Positions 4,746 to 51,959 of a DNA stretch of 64,000 nt are shown here, piece by piece. The position numbers and the translations under genes are program-made. Source of the stretch: Rikenellaceae bacterium (lineage in GTDB: Bacteria > Bacteroidota > Bacteroidia > Bacteroidales > Rikenellaceae); assembly GCA_020860245.1 (NCBI GenBank), contig JAJBUQ010000008.1, forward strand, positions 84,919 to 148,918, written 5' to 3'. Within the stretch, counting starts at the first letter, position 1. Every line of letters begins with the position of its first letter. The notes below the pieces were generated by a model. That model saw nothing but the letters and a program-made list of their open reading frames with translations. It was not told where the DNA came from and did no database searches.

Positions 4746-4809
4746 TAAATAGAAACAATAAAAGAAGGGGTAATCTTATGATTACCCCTTCTTTTATTGT
4801 TTCTATTTA
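4746..4809. terminator. Bidirectional terminator, 30-bp perfect stem
   Basis: Arms 4746-4775 and 4780-4809 are exact reverse complements (30 bp) around a TTAT loop. The AGAAGGGGTAATC core is flanked by A- and T-rich arms, giving a U-tract in both directions. It serves the membrane protein gene on the plus strand and rpsT on the minus strand. Confidence 0.93.
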
Positions 4810-35832: not shown

Positions 35833-36939
35833 TTAGTTTTCTTCCTCTGTTTCTATATCCTTCACCGATATATCCGCTCCTCCTTCGACCTTATAGTGTT
35901 TTAGTGGATTTGCAGTGATGCGGTTATAAATATTCCTGTTGTTCCAAATATCAACGGCTGAATATACCGCAGCCCTGAAAGAGGACGGATCTGCAAGATT
36001 TTTTCCGGCTATATCGTATCCTACCCCATGTGCAGGCGATGTTCTTACGATAGAGAGTCCGGCAGTAAAATTCACGCCTGATTCCGGACAAAGCGCCTTG
36101 AACGGTGCCAGACCTTGATCGTGATACATTGCAAGTACGGCATCGTATTTTGCGAAGGCTCCCGAACCGAAAAATCCGTCTGCGGCGAACGGTCCGAAGG
36201 CCAGTATCCCTTCGTCATTGGCTGATATTACAGCAGGGGATATCACTTCCTTCTCTTCGCTGCCCAGAAGTCCGTCGTCTCCGGCATGCGGATTAAGGCT
36301 TAGAACAGCTATTTTGGGATCCCGAATACTAAAATCGCTGACAAGCGATCTTTTAATCGCTCTTAATTTTTTAAGTATCAGTTCGGAATTAACACGCGAA
36401 GAGACTTCCGATAACGGAATGTGGATAGTTGTCAGTCCAACTCTCACCGAATCTCCCACCATCATCATAAGCGGCTCGGTATCGTGAAAATTAGCATCGA
36501 GGAATTCGGTATGTCCGGTAAAATCGAACTCGTCGCATTGTATATTGGCCTTGTTTATCGGAGCAGTAACGAGAACGTCAATCTTCCCCTCCCGAATATC
36601 CCTGACGGCGGCATTCAGCGAAGCGGCTGCGGCCTGTCCGGCAACCACGTCGGATTTGCCCGGTTCCACACGGATATTGTCCTCAACACAATTCAAGAGG
36701 TTCACTTTGCGCGGCAACGCATCTTCAGCATTACGTATCTGATTAAACGAGAGCGACTCTCCTCCGGGAATATTCTTCTTATAATATCTCAACACCTTTG
36801 AAGAACCGTAGATCACAGGGGTACAGATATCCAGCGTCCGCTGATCCATAAAAGTTTTGACTATTATCTCGTATCCTATTCCGTTAATATCTCCATGGGT
36901 AATCCCTACCCTTATTTTTCCATCCATAGTTAAATTCAT
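35833..36939 (-). CDS. pdxA: 4-hydroxythreonine-4-phosphate dehydrogenase
   Basis: NAD-dependent step of DXP-dependent pyridoxal phosphate synthesis. 368 residues with the PdxA marks GITHGDINGIGYEI near 13, TAPINKANI near 128, GHTEFL near 145, LNPHAGDDGLLG near 222 and YHDQGLAPFK near 280. Metal-binding His residues are present. The ATG at 36939 or one four codons later is possible; a hairpin ends 4 nt before the first. Three TAnnTTTG-like boxes lie upstream. Partner ddh is unrelated by pathway except for PLP-using steps. Confidence 0.95.
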   Translation of the reverse strand: MNLTMDGKIRVGITHGDINGIGYEIIVKTFMDQRTLDICTPVIYGSSKVLRYYKKNIPGGESLSFNQIRNAEDALPRKVNLLNCVEDNIRVEPGKSDVVAGQAAAASLNAAVRDIREGKIDVLVTAPINKANIQCDEFDFTGHTEFLDANFHDTEPLMMMVGDSVRVGLTTIHIPLSEVSSRVNSELILKKLRAIKRSLVSDFSIRDPKIAVLSLNPHAGDDGLLGSEEKEVISPAVISANDEGILAFGPFAADGFFGSGAFAKYDAVLAMYHDQGLAPFKALCPESGVNFTAGLSIVRTSPAHGVGYDIAGKNLADPSSFRAAVYSAVDIWNNRNIYNRITANPLKHYKVEGGADISVKDIETEEEN

Positions 36940-37222
36940 TGGAACCGGAAAAATTTCCGGTAAATTGGTAATAGCGCAAATATAGTGAGTAGGTAACTGA
37001 CAAGGTCAAACTTGCTTATGACTTGTCCGAACCGCATTCTATATTTTACAAATATAGTTAAAACCGATTGTAATCGTGTAAAAATTGTTTACAAAGATTA
37101 CGAGGGTGCATAACACTATATTCTATAAAATATAACGAAGGCCGATAGATACCGTCCGAGTTCTCTCAAAGGTTATCCGAGGCATATTCCGTATTCTGCA
37201 AAGATAACTAAAAATATAAAAA
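36940..37222 (-). other. Intergenic region with three promoter-like boxes and a start-proximal hairpin
   Basis: No gene seen. On the minus strand TAnnTTTG matches lie at 36977-36984 (TATATTTG), 37050-37057 (TATATTTG) and 37199-37206 (TATCTTTG), all reading toward pdxA. An inverted repeat, ACCGGAAA / TTTCCGGT at 36944-36961, forms a hairpin 4 nt before the pdxA ATG. Confidence 0.45.
36977..36984 (-). promoter_or_regulatory. Promoter -7 box nearest pdxA
   Basis: TATATTTG on the minus strand, 37 nt before the ATG; the short leader would be mostly the hairpin at 36944-36961. Confidence 0.55.
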
Positions 37223-37245
37223 CAGGGATCATAGAATGATCCCTG
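37223..37245 (-). terminator. Terminator of thrS-infC
   Basis: A 10-bp perfect stem CAGGGATCAT / ATGATCCCTG with an AGA loop and a T-rich tail on the minus strand, 15 nt past the infC stop. Confidence 0.88.
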
Positions 37246-37260
37246 CATATATTCCGGTTA

Positions 37261-39861: not shown

Positions 39862-39914
39862 TAATTTTTTGATCTTATTCTTATACACGGTTGATTATTT
39901 GCGCATAAAAGAAA

Positions 39915-39936
39915 AAGCATCCTTATAAGGATGCTT
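39915..39936 (-). terminator. Terminator of the kdu/kdg/exuT operon
   Basis: Palindrome AAGCATCCTTA / TAAGGATGCTT with a T-run on the minus strand, 10 nt past the exuT stop. Confidence 0.85.
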
Positions 39937-39945
39937 CTCTTGAAG

Positions 39946-41406
39946 TTAGTCTATCTGAATAGGCTTATATTTCGGTACGAGAATTTTCATAATTATCCAT
40001 CCGATAAGATACGCTACTGCACAAATAGAGAATATGATAAAATATCCTGAATTTATACCCTCGAATCCCATAAATTTCATGTTGGTTTCAGCGGAGTAAT
40101 CGAATAACACGCCTGAACCTTTATTTATCAGGAACGAACCGATACCTCCTGCCATACCGCCGATTCCCGTAATCGTTGCGATAACCGATTTAGGGAACAT
40201 ATCGCCGATAGTCGAGAATATATTCGCAGACCATGCCTGGTGGGTAGCACCTGCGATACCGATAATTATAACCGGGATCCAGTATGTTATAGTTCCCAAC
40301 GGCTGTGCGAGAAGCGCGAGAAGAGGGAAGAACGCAAAGATTAACATCGCGCGCATACGGCCTGCGTAAGGATTCATGCCTTTTTTGATAAAGAATTCCG
40401 GCAGCCATCCTCCGATGATCGACAATAGCGTTATCATATATAGTATGAACAGCGGGAACGCAACCTGTGTAGAATTCATTCCATAAACTGAGCTAAGGTA
40501 TGCAGGCGCCCAGAAGAGATAGAACCACCATACACCGTCGGTCATGAACTTACCCACGGCGAACGCCCAGGTCTGTTTGTATTTGAAGCACTGTGCGAAC
40601 GAGATTTTCTTTTTATCGTGCTGAGCCTGCTCAACCTGCTCTTCGGTAGGATTGTCCGACACGCTGTCCTGCTGGATATAAGCAAGTTCGGCCTTACTTA
40701 CTTTAGGGTGTTTCTCCGGTTTATTATACATAAACTGCCAGAATCCCATCCATATAAAGCCGACTCCACCAATGATAATGAATGCCACTTCCCAACCCCA
40801 TGCTTTGGCAATAAAAGGAATGGTAACAGGTGCTGCAAGAGCACCTATTGTAGCCCCTGCGTTGAATATACTGGTAGCGAGAGCGCGGTCTTTTTTAGGG
40901 AAGAACTCCGCAGTGGTCTTGATGGCAGCCGGGAAGTTCCCCGCCTCACCGACCGCAAGAACAAGTCTTGCCAGTACGAACAATGCCACACTCACATTGA
41001 CAACTTTGGATATATCGGTAACGGTAGCGATAGCTTCTCTCGCACCTTCGAATCCGACGAACCAGTTACCTGTTGTGATTCCCGATGTAGCGATACCGCA
41101 GAACGCGTGAAGACATGCACCGAACGACCATACTCCGATAGCCCAAAGAAATCCTTTTTTTGTGTCCATCCAGTCTACAAAACGTCCTGCGAACAACATG
41201 CTTATAGCATAGAAGAGAGAGAACAAAGAGGTAATTGTACCGTAGTGATTATTGGTCCAATGGAACTCTGGAGCGATAAACTCAACCCATGTCAACGACA
41301 GAACCTGACGGTCCATGTAGTTTATGGTCGTGGCGAAGAACAGCAGGGAACAGATAGCCCAACGGTAATTGGTCATCTTTTGCCCCGGCACTTTAATTGA
41401 ACTCAT
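39946..41406 (-). CDS. exuT: MFS hexuronate transporter (ExuT-like, ACS family)
   Basis: 486 residues, 12 predicted membrane segments in two halves. MDRQVLSLTW after helix 1, the loop 2-3 motif FAGRFVDWMDTKKG, and GEAGNFPAAIKTTAEFFPKKDRALATS near 152 are typical of the anion:cation symporter family that takes up glucuronate and galacturonate. Located downstream of kduI-kduD-kdgK-kdgA, 42 nt after kdgA, so uronate uptake is the likely task. It is the last gene before the terminator. Confidence 0.88.
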   Translation of the reverse strand: MSSIKVPGQKMTNYRWAICSLLFFATTINYMDRQVLSLTWVEFIAPEFHWTNNHYGTITSLFSLFYAISMLFAGRFVDWMDTKKGFLWAIGVWSFGACLHAFCGIATSGITTGNWFVGFEGAREAIATVTDISKVVNVSVALFVLARLVLAVGEAGNFPAAIKTTAEFFPKKDRALATSIFNAGATIGALAAPVTIPFIAKAWGWEVAFIIIGGVGFIWMGFWQFMYNKPEKHPKVSKAELAYIQQDSVSDNPTEEQVEQAQHDKKKISFAQCFKYKQTWAFAVGKFMTDGVWWFYLFWAPAYLSSVYGMNSTQVAFPLFILYMITLLSIIGGWLPEFFIKKGMNPYAGRMRAMLIFAFFPLLALLAQPLGTITYWIPVIIIGIAGATHQAWSANIFSTIGDMFPKSVIATITGIGGMAGGIGSFLINKGSGVLFDYSAETNMKFMGFEGINSGYFIIFSICAVAYLIGWIIMKILVPKYKPIQID

Positions 41407-41448: not shown

Positions 41449-42117
41449 TTATTTATATTTTTCTATTATCGCGAACGCGTTTTTACACAGGTCAGTAATC
41501 TTACCCCACTCTTTAGCGTCGATAACTTCTTTAGGGAATAGGTTCGAACCCATACCTACACAAGTAACACCTGCCTTAAACCAAGCGGAGAGATTATCTT
41601 CAGTCGGTTCCACTGCACCTGTTACCATCAGCATAGACCACGGCATCGGAGCTTTTACATTCTTCACAAACGACGGTCCTCCTACGTTGCCTGCGGGGAA
41701 TACTTTGCAGAGATCACATCCGGCTTCCTGAGCGAATCCTATCTCGGATACCGATCCGCATCCCGGAGTATAAGATACGAGCCTGCGGTTACATATCTTA
41801 GCCACTTCCGGATTGAACAACGGACCCACGACGAAGTTAGCGCCCAACTGAAGGTAGAGCGCGGCAGTAGCGGGATCGACTATGGAACCTATACCGATTA
41901 TCATATCCGGACATTCCTTTGCAGCCCACTTTACCAGTTCGCCGAATACCTCCTGAGCGAAGTCTCCGCGATTTGTAAATTCGAATGCACGGACACCTCC
42001 GTCATAACAAGCCTTCACGACATTTTTTGCTGTTTCAAGGTCTTTATTGTAGAAAACCGGAACCATGCCTGTTTTAGTCATGGTGTCCAGTACTTGTATT
42101 TTTGTAAATCTTGCCAT
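41449..42117 (-). CDS. kdgA: KDPG / 4-hydroxy-2-oxoglutarate aldolase
   Basis: Splits 2-keto-3-deoxy-6-phosphogluconate to pyruvate and glyceraldehyde-3-P. 222 residues of the class I aldolase barrel: FEFTNRGDF with Glu near 47, [11 protein letters not shown] near 75, and the Schiff-base Lys in [11 protein letters not shown] near 138. Follows the KDG kinase by 18 nt, so it consumes that enzyme's product. Confidence 0.94.
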
Positions 42118-42135: not shown

Positions 42136-43176
42136 TTATCTCGATACGCGGCCTGATCCGTCCCCTTTCATAAGATTTTCTACTTCAGCAACCGTAACGA
42201 GGTTGAAGTCTCCGTATATGGTATGTTTTAGGTTAGATGCAGCAACTGCGAAGTTCAATGCCTTCTGGTCGTCTCCCGGATAAGAAATAAGACCATATAT
42301 AAGTCCTCCCATGAACGAATCGCCTCCGCCTACACGGTCTACGATGTGGGTAATATCGTATCTCGGAGACTGATATAGAGTGGTTCCGTTATAAAGAACT
42401 CCACCCCATGTGTTGTGGTTGGCATTGATAGAACCGCGAAGGGTTATGATTACCTTCTTAGCACGCGGGAATTTTTTCATAAGTTGTGTGCATACAGACT
42501 CGAATTCAGCGGCATTCACCTCTCCTGAAGTCTGTGTGACATCGAATCCTTCAGGTTTGATTCCGAATACTTTTTCTGCATCCTCTTCGTTGCCGAGGAT
42601 TACATCGCAGCCTTCCACCAGAGCAGGCATAATCTCCGATGCGCTTTTGCCGTACTTCCACAGATTTTTGCGGTAATTAAGGTCGGTAGATACGGTAATA
42701 CCCATTTTATTAGCTACTTTAATAGCTTCTAAACAGGCGTCAGCAGCACCCTGCGACAACGCTGGGGTAATTCCTGTCCAGTGGAACCATTCGGCCCCTT
42801 GGAATACCTCTTCCCAATTTATCATGCCCGGCTGTATCTCTGCGATAGCTGAATTAGCACGGTCGTAAACTACCTTGCTCGCGCGCGCAACGGCACCGGT
42901 TTCGAGGAAGTAAATACCTACACGGTCTCCGCCGCGAACGATATGATCGGTTTTAACGCCGTATTTGTGGAGATCCATGATACAGGACTCTGCAATGTCG
43001 TTTTTGGGAAGTCTCGTAACAAATTCCGCGTTAAGCCCGTAATTAGCGAGCGACACTGCGACGTTAGCCTCGCCTCCACCGAACGTAGCTGTAAATTCTT
43101 TAGCCTGGCTGAACCTCAAATATCCCGGTGTAGCAAGGCGGAGCATGATCTCACCGAAGGTAACTACTTTTTTCAT
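42136..43176 (-). CDS. kdgK: 2-keto-3-deoxygluconate kinase (PfkB family)
   Basis: Phosphorylates KDG to KDPG. 346 residues, ribokinase fold: the N-terminal GGGEANVAVSLANYGL near 32-47 and the C-terminal DRVGGGDSFMGGLIYG near 280 with the catalytic Asp. The assignment within PfkB rests on the operon (between kduD and kdgA). A long hairpin lies in the 114 nt upstream. Confidence 0.9.
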   Translation of the reverse strand: MKKVVTFGEIMLRLATPGYLRFSQAKEFTATFGGGEANVAVSLANYGLNAEFVTRLPKNDIAESCIMDLHKYGVKTDHIVRGGDRVGIYFLETGAVARASKVVYDRANSAIAEIQPGMINWEEVFQGAEWFHWTGITPALSQGAADACLEAIKVANKMGITVSTDLNYRKNLWKYGKSASEIMPALVEGCDVILGNEEDAEKVFGIKPEGFDVTQTSGEVNAAEFESVCTQLMKKFPRAKKVIITLRGSINANHNTWGGVLYNGTTLYQSPRYDITHIVDRVGGGDSFMGGLIYGLISYPGDDQKALNFAVAASNLKHTIYGDFNLVTVAEVENLMKGDGSGRVSR

Positions 43177-43220
43177 GTTTTATTTTATGTTTCTGATTTA
43201 TTTGGGTTTATAAAAGCAAA

Positions 43221-43263
43221 TATCCCCACTATTCCGGCCGTTTAAACCGGAATAGCAGGGATA
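43221..43263 (-). promoter_or_regulatory. 17-bp RNA hairpin between kduD and kdgK
   Basis: On the minus strand arms 43247-43263 and 43221-43237 pair over 17 bp with two adjacent G-U pairs, loop 9 nt, followed by a moderately T-rich stretch (ATTTGCTTTTAT). On the plus strand the G-U positions would be mismatches, so the RNA is on the operon strand. Could be an internal partial terminator or a stabilising 3' end. Confidence 0.75.
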
Positions 43264-43290
43264 GTATTTCATATTATTTTTATTGTCGGA

Positions 43291-44079
43291 TTATTTAGGT
43301 TGTTTGCCTATATAAGCGAGAATTCCTCCGTCCACATATAAAACGTGTCCGTTCACGAAGTTCGAAGCATCCGACGCAAGAAATATCGCCGGACCTTTGA
43401 GGTCTTCCGGGGTTCCCCATCTCGCGGCAGGAGTTTTAGCTATGATGAACGAATTAAACGGATGTCCGTCCTCGCGGAGCGGAGCGGTCTGCGGTGTTGC
43501 GATGTATCCCGGACCTATACCGTTACACTGTATGTTATATTCGCCGTATTCCGAAGCGATGTTACGAGTAAGCATCTTAAGTCCGCCTTTAGCAGCAGCG
43601 TAAGCGGATACTGTTTCACGACCGAGTTCAGACATCATCGAACAGATATTTATAATCTTACCGTGCCCTTTTTTTATCATTCCCGGAATAACTGCCTTAG
43701 AGACAATAAACGGAGCGTTAAGATCCACGTCGATAACCTGACGGAATTCGGCAGCGCTCATCTCAACCATCGGGATACGCTTGATTATGCCTGCGTTGTT
43801 CACTAAAATGTCGATAACCCCCACTTCTTTCTCGATCTGAGCTACCATCGCGTTTACCTGATCCTCATCAGTCACGTCGCAAATATATCCGTGGGCGGTT
43901 ATTCCGTTTTCCTTGTAGGCTGCAACACCCTTATCTACAAGGTCCTGTTTGATATCGTTGAAGACAATTGTCGCTCCTGCCTCTGCAAGCGCAGACGCCA
44001 TCGCAAACCCGATTCCGTAAGACGCGCCTGTTACCAACGCAACTTTGCCTTTAAGGCAGAATGAATCCATCATAGACAT
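43291..44079 (-). CDS. kduD: 2-dehydro-3-deoxy-D-gluconate 5-dehydrogenase (SDR)
   Basis: Reduces 2,5-diketo-3-deoxygluconate (DKII) to KDG. 262 residues, short-chain dehydrogenase: cofactor loop TGASYGIGFAMASALAEAG at 18-36, NNAGI near 93, catalytic Ser in INICSMMSE and YAAAK near 160. Position after kduI supports KduD rather than gluconate 5-dehydrogenase, which looks alike. The start is MSMMDSF; one of the nearby Met codons could also serve. Confidence 0.92.
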   Translation of the reverse strand: MSMMDSFCLKGKVALVTGASYGIGFAMASALAEAGATIVFNDIKQDLVDKGVAAYKENGITAHGYICDVTDEDQVNAMVAQIEKEVGVIDILVNNAGIIKRIPMVEMSAAEFRQVIDVDLNAPFIVSKAVIPGMIKKGHGKIINICSMMSELGRETVSAYAAAKGGLKMLTRNIASEYGEYNIQCNGIGPGYIATPQTAPLREDGHPFNSFIIAKTPAARWGTPEDLKGPAIFLASDASNFVNGHVLYVDGGILAYIGKQPK

Positions 44080-44108: not shown

Positions 44109-44951
44109 TTATTTAAGATCAACTGTCTGGCAAGTATCCATATCGTTATAGTCGAGATTCTCGCCTGTCATACCCCAGATGAATGTGTACGCGCTCGTAG
44201 CACATGCGGAGTGGATAGACCACTGAGGAGAAATTACCGCTTCTTCGCACTTCATCCATACGTGGCGTGTCTCCTGAGGTTCACCCATGAAGTGGCATAC
44301 AGCCTGATCCGAAGGAAGATCGAAATAAAAATAAGCCTCCATACGGCGGTTGTGAGTGTGAGCCGGCATGGTATTCCAAACGCTTCCCGGCTGAAGTTCG
44401 GTCATACCCATCTGAAGCTGGCACGTAGGAAGAACTTCTTTAACGATCATACGATTGATGATGCGGTGGTTGCTGCCTTCGAGCGAACCTAATTCAAGAA
44501 CGACGGCATCCTTCTTAGTCACCTTCTTCGTAGGATAAGATGCGTGCGCAGGTGCGGAATTGAAATAAAATTTTGCAGGATTAGCAGCATCCACACTTTT
44601 GAATATAACCTTTTTAACCCCGCGTTCGATATAGAGAGCCTCTTTATAGTCGATGTCGTAAGTTTCACCGTCTGCAACTACCTGTCCGGCACCGCCTACG
44701 TTGATAAGTCCGAGTTCCCTCCTTTCAAGGAAATAATCTGTGCGAATCTCTTCCGGCGCAGTAAGTTCGAGTTCTTCACCGGCAGGAACCGCTCCTCCGA
44801 CGACGAGCCTGTCATACATGGTATAGACCATATTAATCTCGTTAGGGATCATAAGATTCTCTACGAGGAAGTGCTCACGTATGGTTTCTGTGTCGTAGAA
44901 CATGAAGTCATTCTGATGACTTGCATACCTGATCTCAAAATTCTGTTTCAT
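44109..44951 (-). CDS. kduI: 5-dehydro-4-deoxy-D-glucuronate isomerase
   Basis: Isomerises 5-keto-4-deoxyuronate, the open form of the unsaturated uronates released by pectin lyases and GH105, to DKII. 280 residues, cupin fold with the metal-binding PAHTHNRRMEAYFYFD near 195 (two His and a Glu). Family-typical length. First gene of kduI-kduD-kdgK-kdgA-exuT. Confidence 0.96.
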   Translation of the reverse strand: MKQNFEIRYASHQNDFMFYDTETIREHFLVENLMIPNEINMVYTMYDRLVVGGAVPAGEELELTAPEEIRTDYFLERRELGLINVGGAGQVVADGETYDIDYKEALYIERGVKKVIFKSVDAANPAKFYFNSAPAHASYPTKKVTKKDAVVLELGSLEGSNHRIINRMIVKEVLPTCQLQMGMTELQPGSVWNTMPAHTHNRRMEAYFYFDLPSDQAVCHFMGEPQETRHVWMKCEEAVISPQWSIHSACATSAYTFIWGMTGENLDYNDMDTCQTVDLK

Positions 44952-45010: not shown

Positions 45011-45018
45011 CAAAAATA
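45011..45018 (-). promoter_or_regulatory. Promoter -7 box of the kduI operon
   Basis: TATTTTTG on the minus strand, 59 nt before the kduI ATG. Confidence 0.5.
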
Positions 45019-46535: not shown

Positions 46536-46552
46536 AAGAAATAAAAATAAAA

Positions 46553-46576
46553 TCGGTCGGCATAGGCACCGACCGA
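46553..46576 (-). terminator. Terminator of nrdJ
   Basis: Stem TCGGTCGG / CCGACCGA with an 8-nt loop and a long T-rich tail on the minus strand. Confidence 0.88.
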
Positions 46577-46597
46577 CAATATAACATTTTTTTCGGA

Positions 46598-51887: not shown

Positions 51888-51959
51888 TGACCTCGACGGG
51901 AATCGAACCCATATCATCAGAACCGGAATCTGACGTTCTATCCATTGAACTACGAGGCC
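51888..51959 (-). tRNA. tRNA-Arg (anticodon CCG)
   Basis: Cloverleaf read by eye on the minus strand: acceptor GGCCTCG / CGAGGTC (one G-U), D-arm GTTC ... GAAC, anticodon stem TCAGA / TCTGA with loop TTCCGGT (anticodon CCG), T-arm ATGGG-TTCGATT-CCCGT, discriminator A. 72 nt; CCA is not encoded. It sits 33 nt past the alpha-oxoamine synthase stop and 5 nt before the trmN6 ATG. Confidence 0.93.

Follow-up and report, generated by a model that had tools for sequence, protein, structure and literature searches.

The window, by which we mean the whole 64,000-nucleotide stretch of Rikenellaceae contig JAJBUQ010000008.1 that was analysed, carries on its minus strand a group of uronate genes in the order kduI, reductase, kdgK, kdgA and MFS transporter, followed by a terminator-like hairpin (39939-39912) and one further gene, which we take to be thrS. 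The hairpin that is the subject of this analysis lies between the reductase gene and kdgK. The features are as follows.

45011-45018, minus strand: TATTTTTG, a Bacteroidetes-type -7 element upstream of kduI (motif scan; also in the sister species)
44109-44951, minus strand: kduI, 5-dehydro-4-deoxy-D-glucuronate isomerase (specific family model passed)
43291-44079, minus strand: SDR reductase, named kduD in the original prediction, probably DhuD-type (family models and literature)
43266-43275, minus strand: upstream block ATATGAAATA (identical to the sister in alignment, except at the alignment ends)
43221-43263, minus strand: hairpin of 17 continuous pairs, 19 in the minimum-energy fold, with loop UAAAC (direct reading, RNAfold and the sister copy)
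43211-43220, minus strand: T-rich tail TTTGCTTTTA, interrupted by GC (direct reading; the sister tail is GCTTTTTTT)
42136-43176, minus strand: kdgK, PfkB-family sugar kinase (family model)
41449-42117, minus strand: kdgA, KDPG/KHG aldolase (specific family model passed)
39946-41406, minus strand: MFS transporter, named exuT in the original prediction (family model)
39912-39939, minus strand: terminator-like hairpin behind the transporter gene, likely the operon end (sequence; kept in the sister)

The gene names first proposed for this locus were retained in part. KduI and the KDPG aldolase passed specific models, whereas the reductase fell below the cut-off for KduD models (TIGR01832, 241.6 versus 338.85 bits) and, among 25 listed models, exceeded the cut-off only for PRK07097 'gluconate 5-dehydrogenase'. 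As an excerpt of a 2025 study reports a hybrid kduI-dhuD pair in Bacteroidota (PMC12838403), the reductase is more probably DhuD-type and dhuD appears a likelier name than kduD. For the kinase, a member of the PfkB family, no specific NCBIfam model exceeded its cut-off, and the proposed exuT product was placed among the MFS transporters, also with no specific model above cut-off.

Positions 43263 to 43221 of the minus strand read TATCCCTGCTATTCCGG-TTTAAACGG-CCGGAATAGTGGGGATA, and direct reading confirmed the predicted 17 continuous pairs including two G-U pairs. These two pairs are adjacent (U-G at 43257/43227 and G-U at 43256/43228), and read on the plus strand the same positions give the two mismatches that had been claimed, both A-C. 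RNAfold extended the stem by two U-G pairs next to the loop to 19 pairs, with four G-U pairs in total, and in this fold UAUGAAA of the upstream block also paired with UUUUAUA of the tail. Between the reductase stop codon and the hairpin are 27 nt, and 44 nt separate the hairpin from the kdgK ATG. Folding of 111 nt of the minus strand gave -31.8 kcal/mol (z -5.67) with none of 200 shuffles equally low, in comparison to -27.7 kcal/mol (z -2.72) with 1 of 200 shuffles equally low for the plus strand. Continuous stems of at least 17 pairs did not occur in 5000 dinucleotide shuffles of the 114-nt gap, where the longest shuffled stem had 14 pairs. The focal hairpin is far beyond chance, and as a G-C containing hairpin on the transcribed strand it has a feature of intrinsic terminators.

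Conservation within the genus was assessed by comparing two genomes, those of the window species and one sister. In the sister the hairpin occupies the corresponding position, with 13 of the 17 stem pairs unchanged, two changed on one side (C-G and G-C in the sister, U-G and G-U here), two broken and none changed on both sides. Identity between the species was 30/34 in the stem arms versus 6/9 in the loop, 47/73 columns in the flanks and 79/168 at fourfold sites of kdgK. The excess of arm identity over flanks and fourfold sites indicated that the stem has clearly been constrained. Identities of nine orthologous hairpins, hand-picked out of 22 gaps with the focal one included, ranged from 50% to 84%, where the focal hairpin had the highest value and two others reached 82-83%. 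A separate hairpin in the gap 36928-37260 keeps its pairing in the sister though its stem letters differ (AGGGATC here, AGGGTTC there), and illustrates compensatory change better than the focal stem does.

The wider contig of 363,289 bases was surveyed using 282 genes called by our own script, which also sets the gaps. The scan covered 126 co-directional gaps of 20-600 nt in 50-nt fold windows, in which longer hairpins are missed, and 61 hairpins reached -12 kcal/mol. At -29.4 kcal/mol the focal hairpin was the most stable in co-directional gaps and second among all gap types in these windows. Continuous stems of at least 17 pairs were no rarity: one strand had 10 and the other 11, for the most part AT-rich sites that enter both counts. 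A hairpin of -15 kcal/mol or below with no TAnnTTTG behind it and the next gene within 100 nt was present in 16 of the 126 gaps, focal gap included. A hairpin within a gene run is thus common in this contig, and the focal one differs from the others only in strength. Two further structures were recorded on the contig. The longest stem found, at positions 4746-4809 and outside called genes, is an inverted repeat of 30 uninterrupted pairs around a 4-nt loop. A terminator-like hairpin at 46552-46577 (minus strand), kept in the sister, lies within a listed 200-aa open reading frame and would be intergenic if that frame began at a later ATG (about 46534).

The original prediction held that the strand asymmetry of the stem indicates pairing in RNA and not symmetry of the DNA. 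For the focal stem alone the ratio of G-U to A-C was 2:0, a weak sign, as equal odds for either outcome would give it with a probability of 0.25. Taken together, the 35 hairpins with nine or more Watson-Crick pairs in the 126 co-directional gaps showed a sense-strand G-U:A-C ratio of 33:6, with 21 leaning to G-U and three to A-C (focal hairpin counted). Since 20 shuffles of the same gaps gave 86:92, RNA-level pairing seems to be selected generally in the hairpins of this contig. The bias shrank in weaker stems, to 46:22 at eight pairs, 73:38 at seven and 112:73 at six, where shuffles gave 1397:1219, and G-U:A-C was 1:1 in convergent and 2:3 in divergent gaps. The inference of RNA pairing was therefore a fair one, yet it is not special to the focal site. 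The principle of strand asymmetry is already known from RNAstrand, as an excerpt of that work describes (PMC1892782), and in genomes without annotation a contig-wide G-U bias offers a cheap means to set RNA hairpins apart from palindromes of DNA.

Transcription of the locus was examined through the motif TAnnTTTG, presumably the -7 promoter element. The kduI copy, TATTTTTG, lies 67 and 66 nt upstream of the kduI start in the window species and the sister, respectively. In both species an exact TAnnTTTG was absent from the gap between hairpin and kdgK and from the final 300 nt of the reductase coding sequence; in the window it was likewise absent between kduI and the reductase gene, between kdgK and kdgA and between kdgA and the transporter gene. 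The hairpin therefore has co-directional genes on both sides and no TAnnTTTG, the one motif scanned, on its 3' side, as is required of an internal terminator. Since the motif precedes kduI and is missing between hairpin and kdgK, read-through is the probable route to kdgK, kdgA and the transporter gene, and the placement of the hairpin within a uronate operon, as originally proposed, is favoured in that the genes probably form one transcription unit in this genus. The absence of TAnnTTTG is in itself weak evidence, as the motif is seldom seen in short gaps (2 of 30 contig gaps of 20-60 nt versus 16 of 37 of 60-120 nt). An excerpt of a B. thetaiotaomicron transcriptome paper contains the string TAnnTTTG once (PMC7366714).

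Among the relatives read, kdgK directly followed the reductase at eight loci, of which seven were from the family and one was from elsewhere in the order. Four of these gaps, of 22-46 nt, had no hairpin of -9 kcal/mol or better; of the other four, one reached only -9.8, one had an unrelated stem of -16.2 and two belonged to the genus members with the focal hairpin. Of at least 80 named loci, none passed a filter for kdgK directly behind the reductase, and L058 and L086, the two in which the gene order was inverted and the gap short, had no hairpin between the genes. Among the loci of relatives that were read the hairpin is confined to a single genus and so does not represent a broadly conserved switch. 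A model of the two sequences (R1) gave weak matches in five further genomes of 61 under Infernal's stricter filters. A homologous hairpin in other genera was rejected on the best R1 match, the one of the five genomes' matches that was read (G017, E 5e-4), which is an unrelated terminator-like stem. Other identities were also discarded. A riboswitch, leader or known sRNA had no Rfam match at gathering score, at which the window gave only a tRNA at 51888-51959; a permissive scan gave 12 matches, each below gathering score. A mobile or REP-like repeat was rejected as the hairpin is single copy, with one full match in genome G000 and six others that were pieces of 14-27 nt at E 0.17 or worse, and in both G000 and G001 R1 at E 1 returned the focal locus alone.

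Hairpins of -15 kcal/mol or below were also counted at the junctions of the pathway among relatives, and occurred in 15 of 51 kdgK-kdgA, 4 of 11 kduI-reductase, 3 of 8 reductase-kdgK and 2 of 44 kdgA-transporter gaps; these are raw counts without a shuffle control, and some of the gaps are long and GC-rich. Two loci of one genus (L142, L143) had a common kdgK-kdgA stem, and L141 had a 19-pair stem in the same gap followed by TTTTTT. This may be interpreted as repeated acquisition of unrelated hairpins by the operon of this pathway, the junction differing between genera (reductase-kdgK in this one, kdgK-kdgA in others), whereby each lineage would remodel internal terminators and not promoters to tune how much isomerase and reductase it makes relative to kinase and aldolase, an interpretation that we consider unlikely. 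In L156 and L157 the gap between kdgK and the reductase contains a stretch with TGTCATTCTGACCGG, which we assume to resemble a widespread repeated element.

We give an even chance to the reading that the focal hairpin acts as a leaky intrinsic terminator inside the kduI-reductase-kdgK-kdgA-transporter operon and would also cap the kduI-reductase mRNA; the likelihoods given to this and all other readings are judgements and were not computed. The hairpin itself, its conservation in the sister, the strand bias of its class and the lack of TAnnTTTG before kdgK are observed; termination and its efficiency, end protection and the expression ratio are inferred, as follows. RNA polymerase that started upstream of kduI would form the stem just past the reductase stop codon, where the long stem and imperfect T-rich tail would release some polymerases while the remainder would continue through kdgK, kdgA and the transporter gene. 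At the end of the resulting short kduI-reductase mRNA, the stem may also act as a shield against 3' exonucleases. The outcome would be more mRNA for isomerase and reductase than for kinase, aldolase and transporter. Partial termination or 3'-end protection with such an imbalance had been originally proposed, an interpretation supported in part, namely by the hairpin on the operon strand, the probable single transcription unit and the sister copy.

The tail bears directly on this reading. Past the outermost G-C pair it has four T in eight bases, compared to a median of five in eight for 12 contig hairpins followed by TAnnTTTG, and because it is interrupted in this way it may hardly terminate. 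Over 12 bases it has eight T versus a median of six in the same 12 hairpins, so its U content is not clearly low either, and the sister tail GCTTTTTTT has seven T in a row. A leaky terminator is also opposed by the lack of two-sided pair changes with 2 of 17 pairs broken in the sister, and by the 3 of 8 loci with a reductase-kdgK hairpin of -15 kcal/mol or below, two of which are genus members.

A somewhat unlikely alternative is a protective or processing stem of the malE-malF kind, which would act without termination; the full transcript would be cut downstream, 3' exonucleases would be halted at the stem and the kduI-reductase part would be longer-lived. Like the leaky terminator, such a stem would leave more kduI-reductase mRNA than kdgK mRNA. 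A very stable stem directly after the upstream gene with no TAnnTTTG behind it is consistent with this alternative, and according to an excerpt of PMC5927463, 26 of 34 upstream-stabilised gene pairs of E. coli end just past a stable hairpin. The same excerpt describes stems of this kind as lacking a uridine tract, and the T-rich tail that follows the focal stem in both species weakens the alternative.

It is doubtful that the hairpin fully terminates a kduI-reductase unit, with kdgK, kdgA and the transporter gene transcribed from a promoter that the TAnnTTTG scan missed. This arrangement draws support from the family, where kdgK was found at E 1e-120 in 57 of 268 genomes and the stretch upstream of it was scanned in all 57. 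TAnnTTTG was present upstream of kdgK in 24 of the 50 genomes in which no reductase gene directly precedes it, so the family does contain separate kdgK units. In the seven with an adjacent reductase gene the motif was found in none, which favours a single unit in the genus of the window; three of these seven adjacent gaps measure just 22-27 nt, where the motif hardly fits, the scan was limited by a crude ORF call (61 of 240 nt in L140, 51 of 69 nt in L141), and others of the 57 stretches may also be cut or missing. In the window, GATATTTG (43217-43224, minus strand) is one mismatch from TAnnTTTG and lies at a plausible distance from the kdgK ATG, overlapping the 3' arm and tail of the hairpin. 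The sister has no such match at that place, its only one-mismatch match being in the end of the reductase gene, and the lack of an exact motif in the gap and in the reductase gene's end of both species further argues against full termination.

That the hairpin is a relic without function is very improbable, since the stem is far more conserved than flanks and fourfold sites, even though its restriction to one genus among the loci read would suit a relic. Least probable of all is a DNA palindrome serving as the operator of a regulator with incidental RNA pairing: stem arms 88% identical between the species, 15 of 17 positions Watson-Crick in each, and an inner core (TTCCGG-N4..11-CCGGAA) with 11 sites in G000 and 19 in G001 versus 0 and 1 in the control would agree with it, but of 10 core sites read among the 30, seven lay inside open frames of at least 100 codons and only the focal site had the outer arms, the class-wide G-U bias points to RNA, and the location, 27 nt past the end of a gene and remote from the kduI promoter, also speaks against it.

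If the focal hairpin terminates in part, as the leaky terminator reading proposes, it would provide a small testable case of a gut-type bacterium that sets enzyme ratios within a catabolic operon and needs no additional promoters to do so. Among the best matches listed from the open-licence literature, no paper addressed a hairpin at the reductase-kdgK junction. The hairpin was compared with four known systems, each as described in excerpts of the papers cited. Internal termination sites of Methanococcus maripaludis likewise lie between operon genes and leave less transcript and protein downstream (PMC10450193), but this organism is an archaeon with a different polymerase. The cip-cel processing stem-loops of Ruminiclostridium cellulolyticum are also intergenic and set the stoichiometry of flanking transcripts, with cleavage beside the stem demonstrated (PMC10311766), whereas the focal stem is known from sequence alone. 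Differential operon decay at malE-malF in E. coli involves a stable stem after an upstream operon gene which, like the focal stem, may block 3' exonucleases, but malE-malF stems have no uridine tract and the focal stem has a T-rich tail (PMC5927463). In ABC-importer operons of cellulolytic Clostridia, internal intrinsic terminators set the ratio of upstream to downstream transcript and have longer GC-rich stems and fewer U, with the tract pairing to 5' sequence (PMC9045158). The focal hairpin resembles these in its long stem within an operon gap and in an imperfect U tract, part of which pairs with 5' flanking sequence, and differs in phylum and pathway, in a U content that is not clearly low, and in that the clostridial efficiencies (20.7-96.1%) were measured whereas any activity of its own is a prediction. 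In summary, the hairpin is most likely a further example of an ordinary and already described way of making the first gene products of an operon in greater amount than the last.
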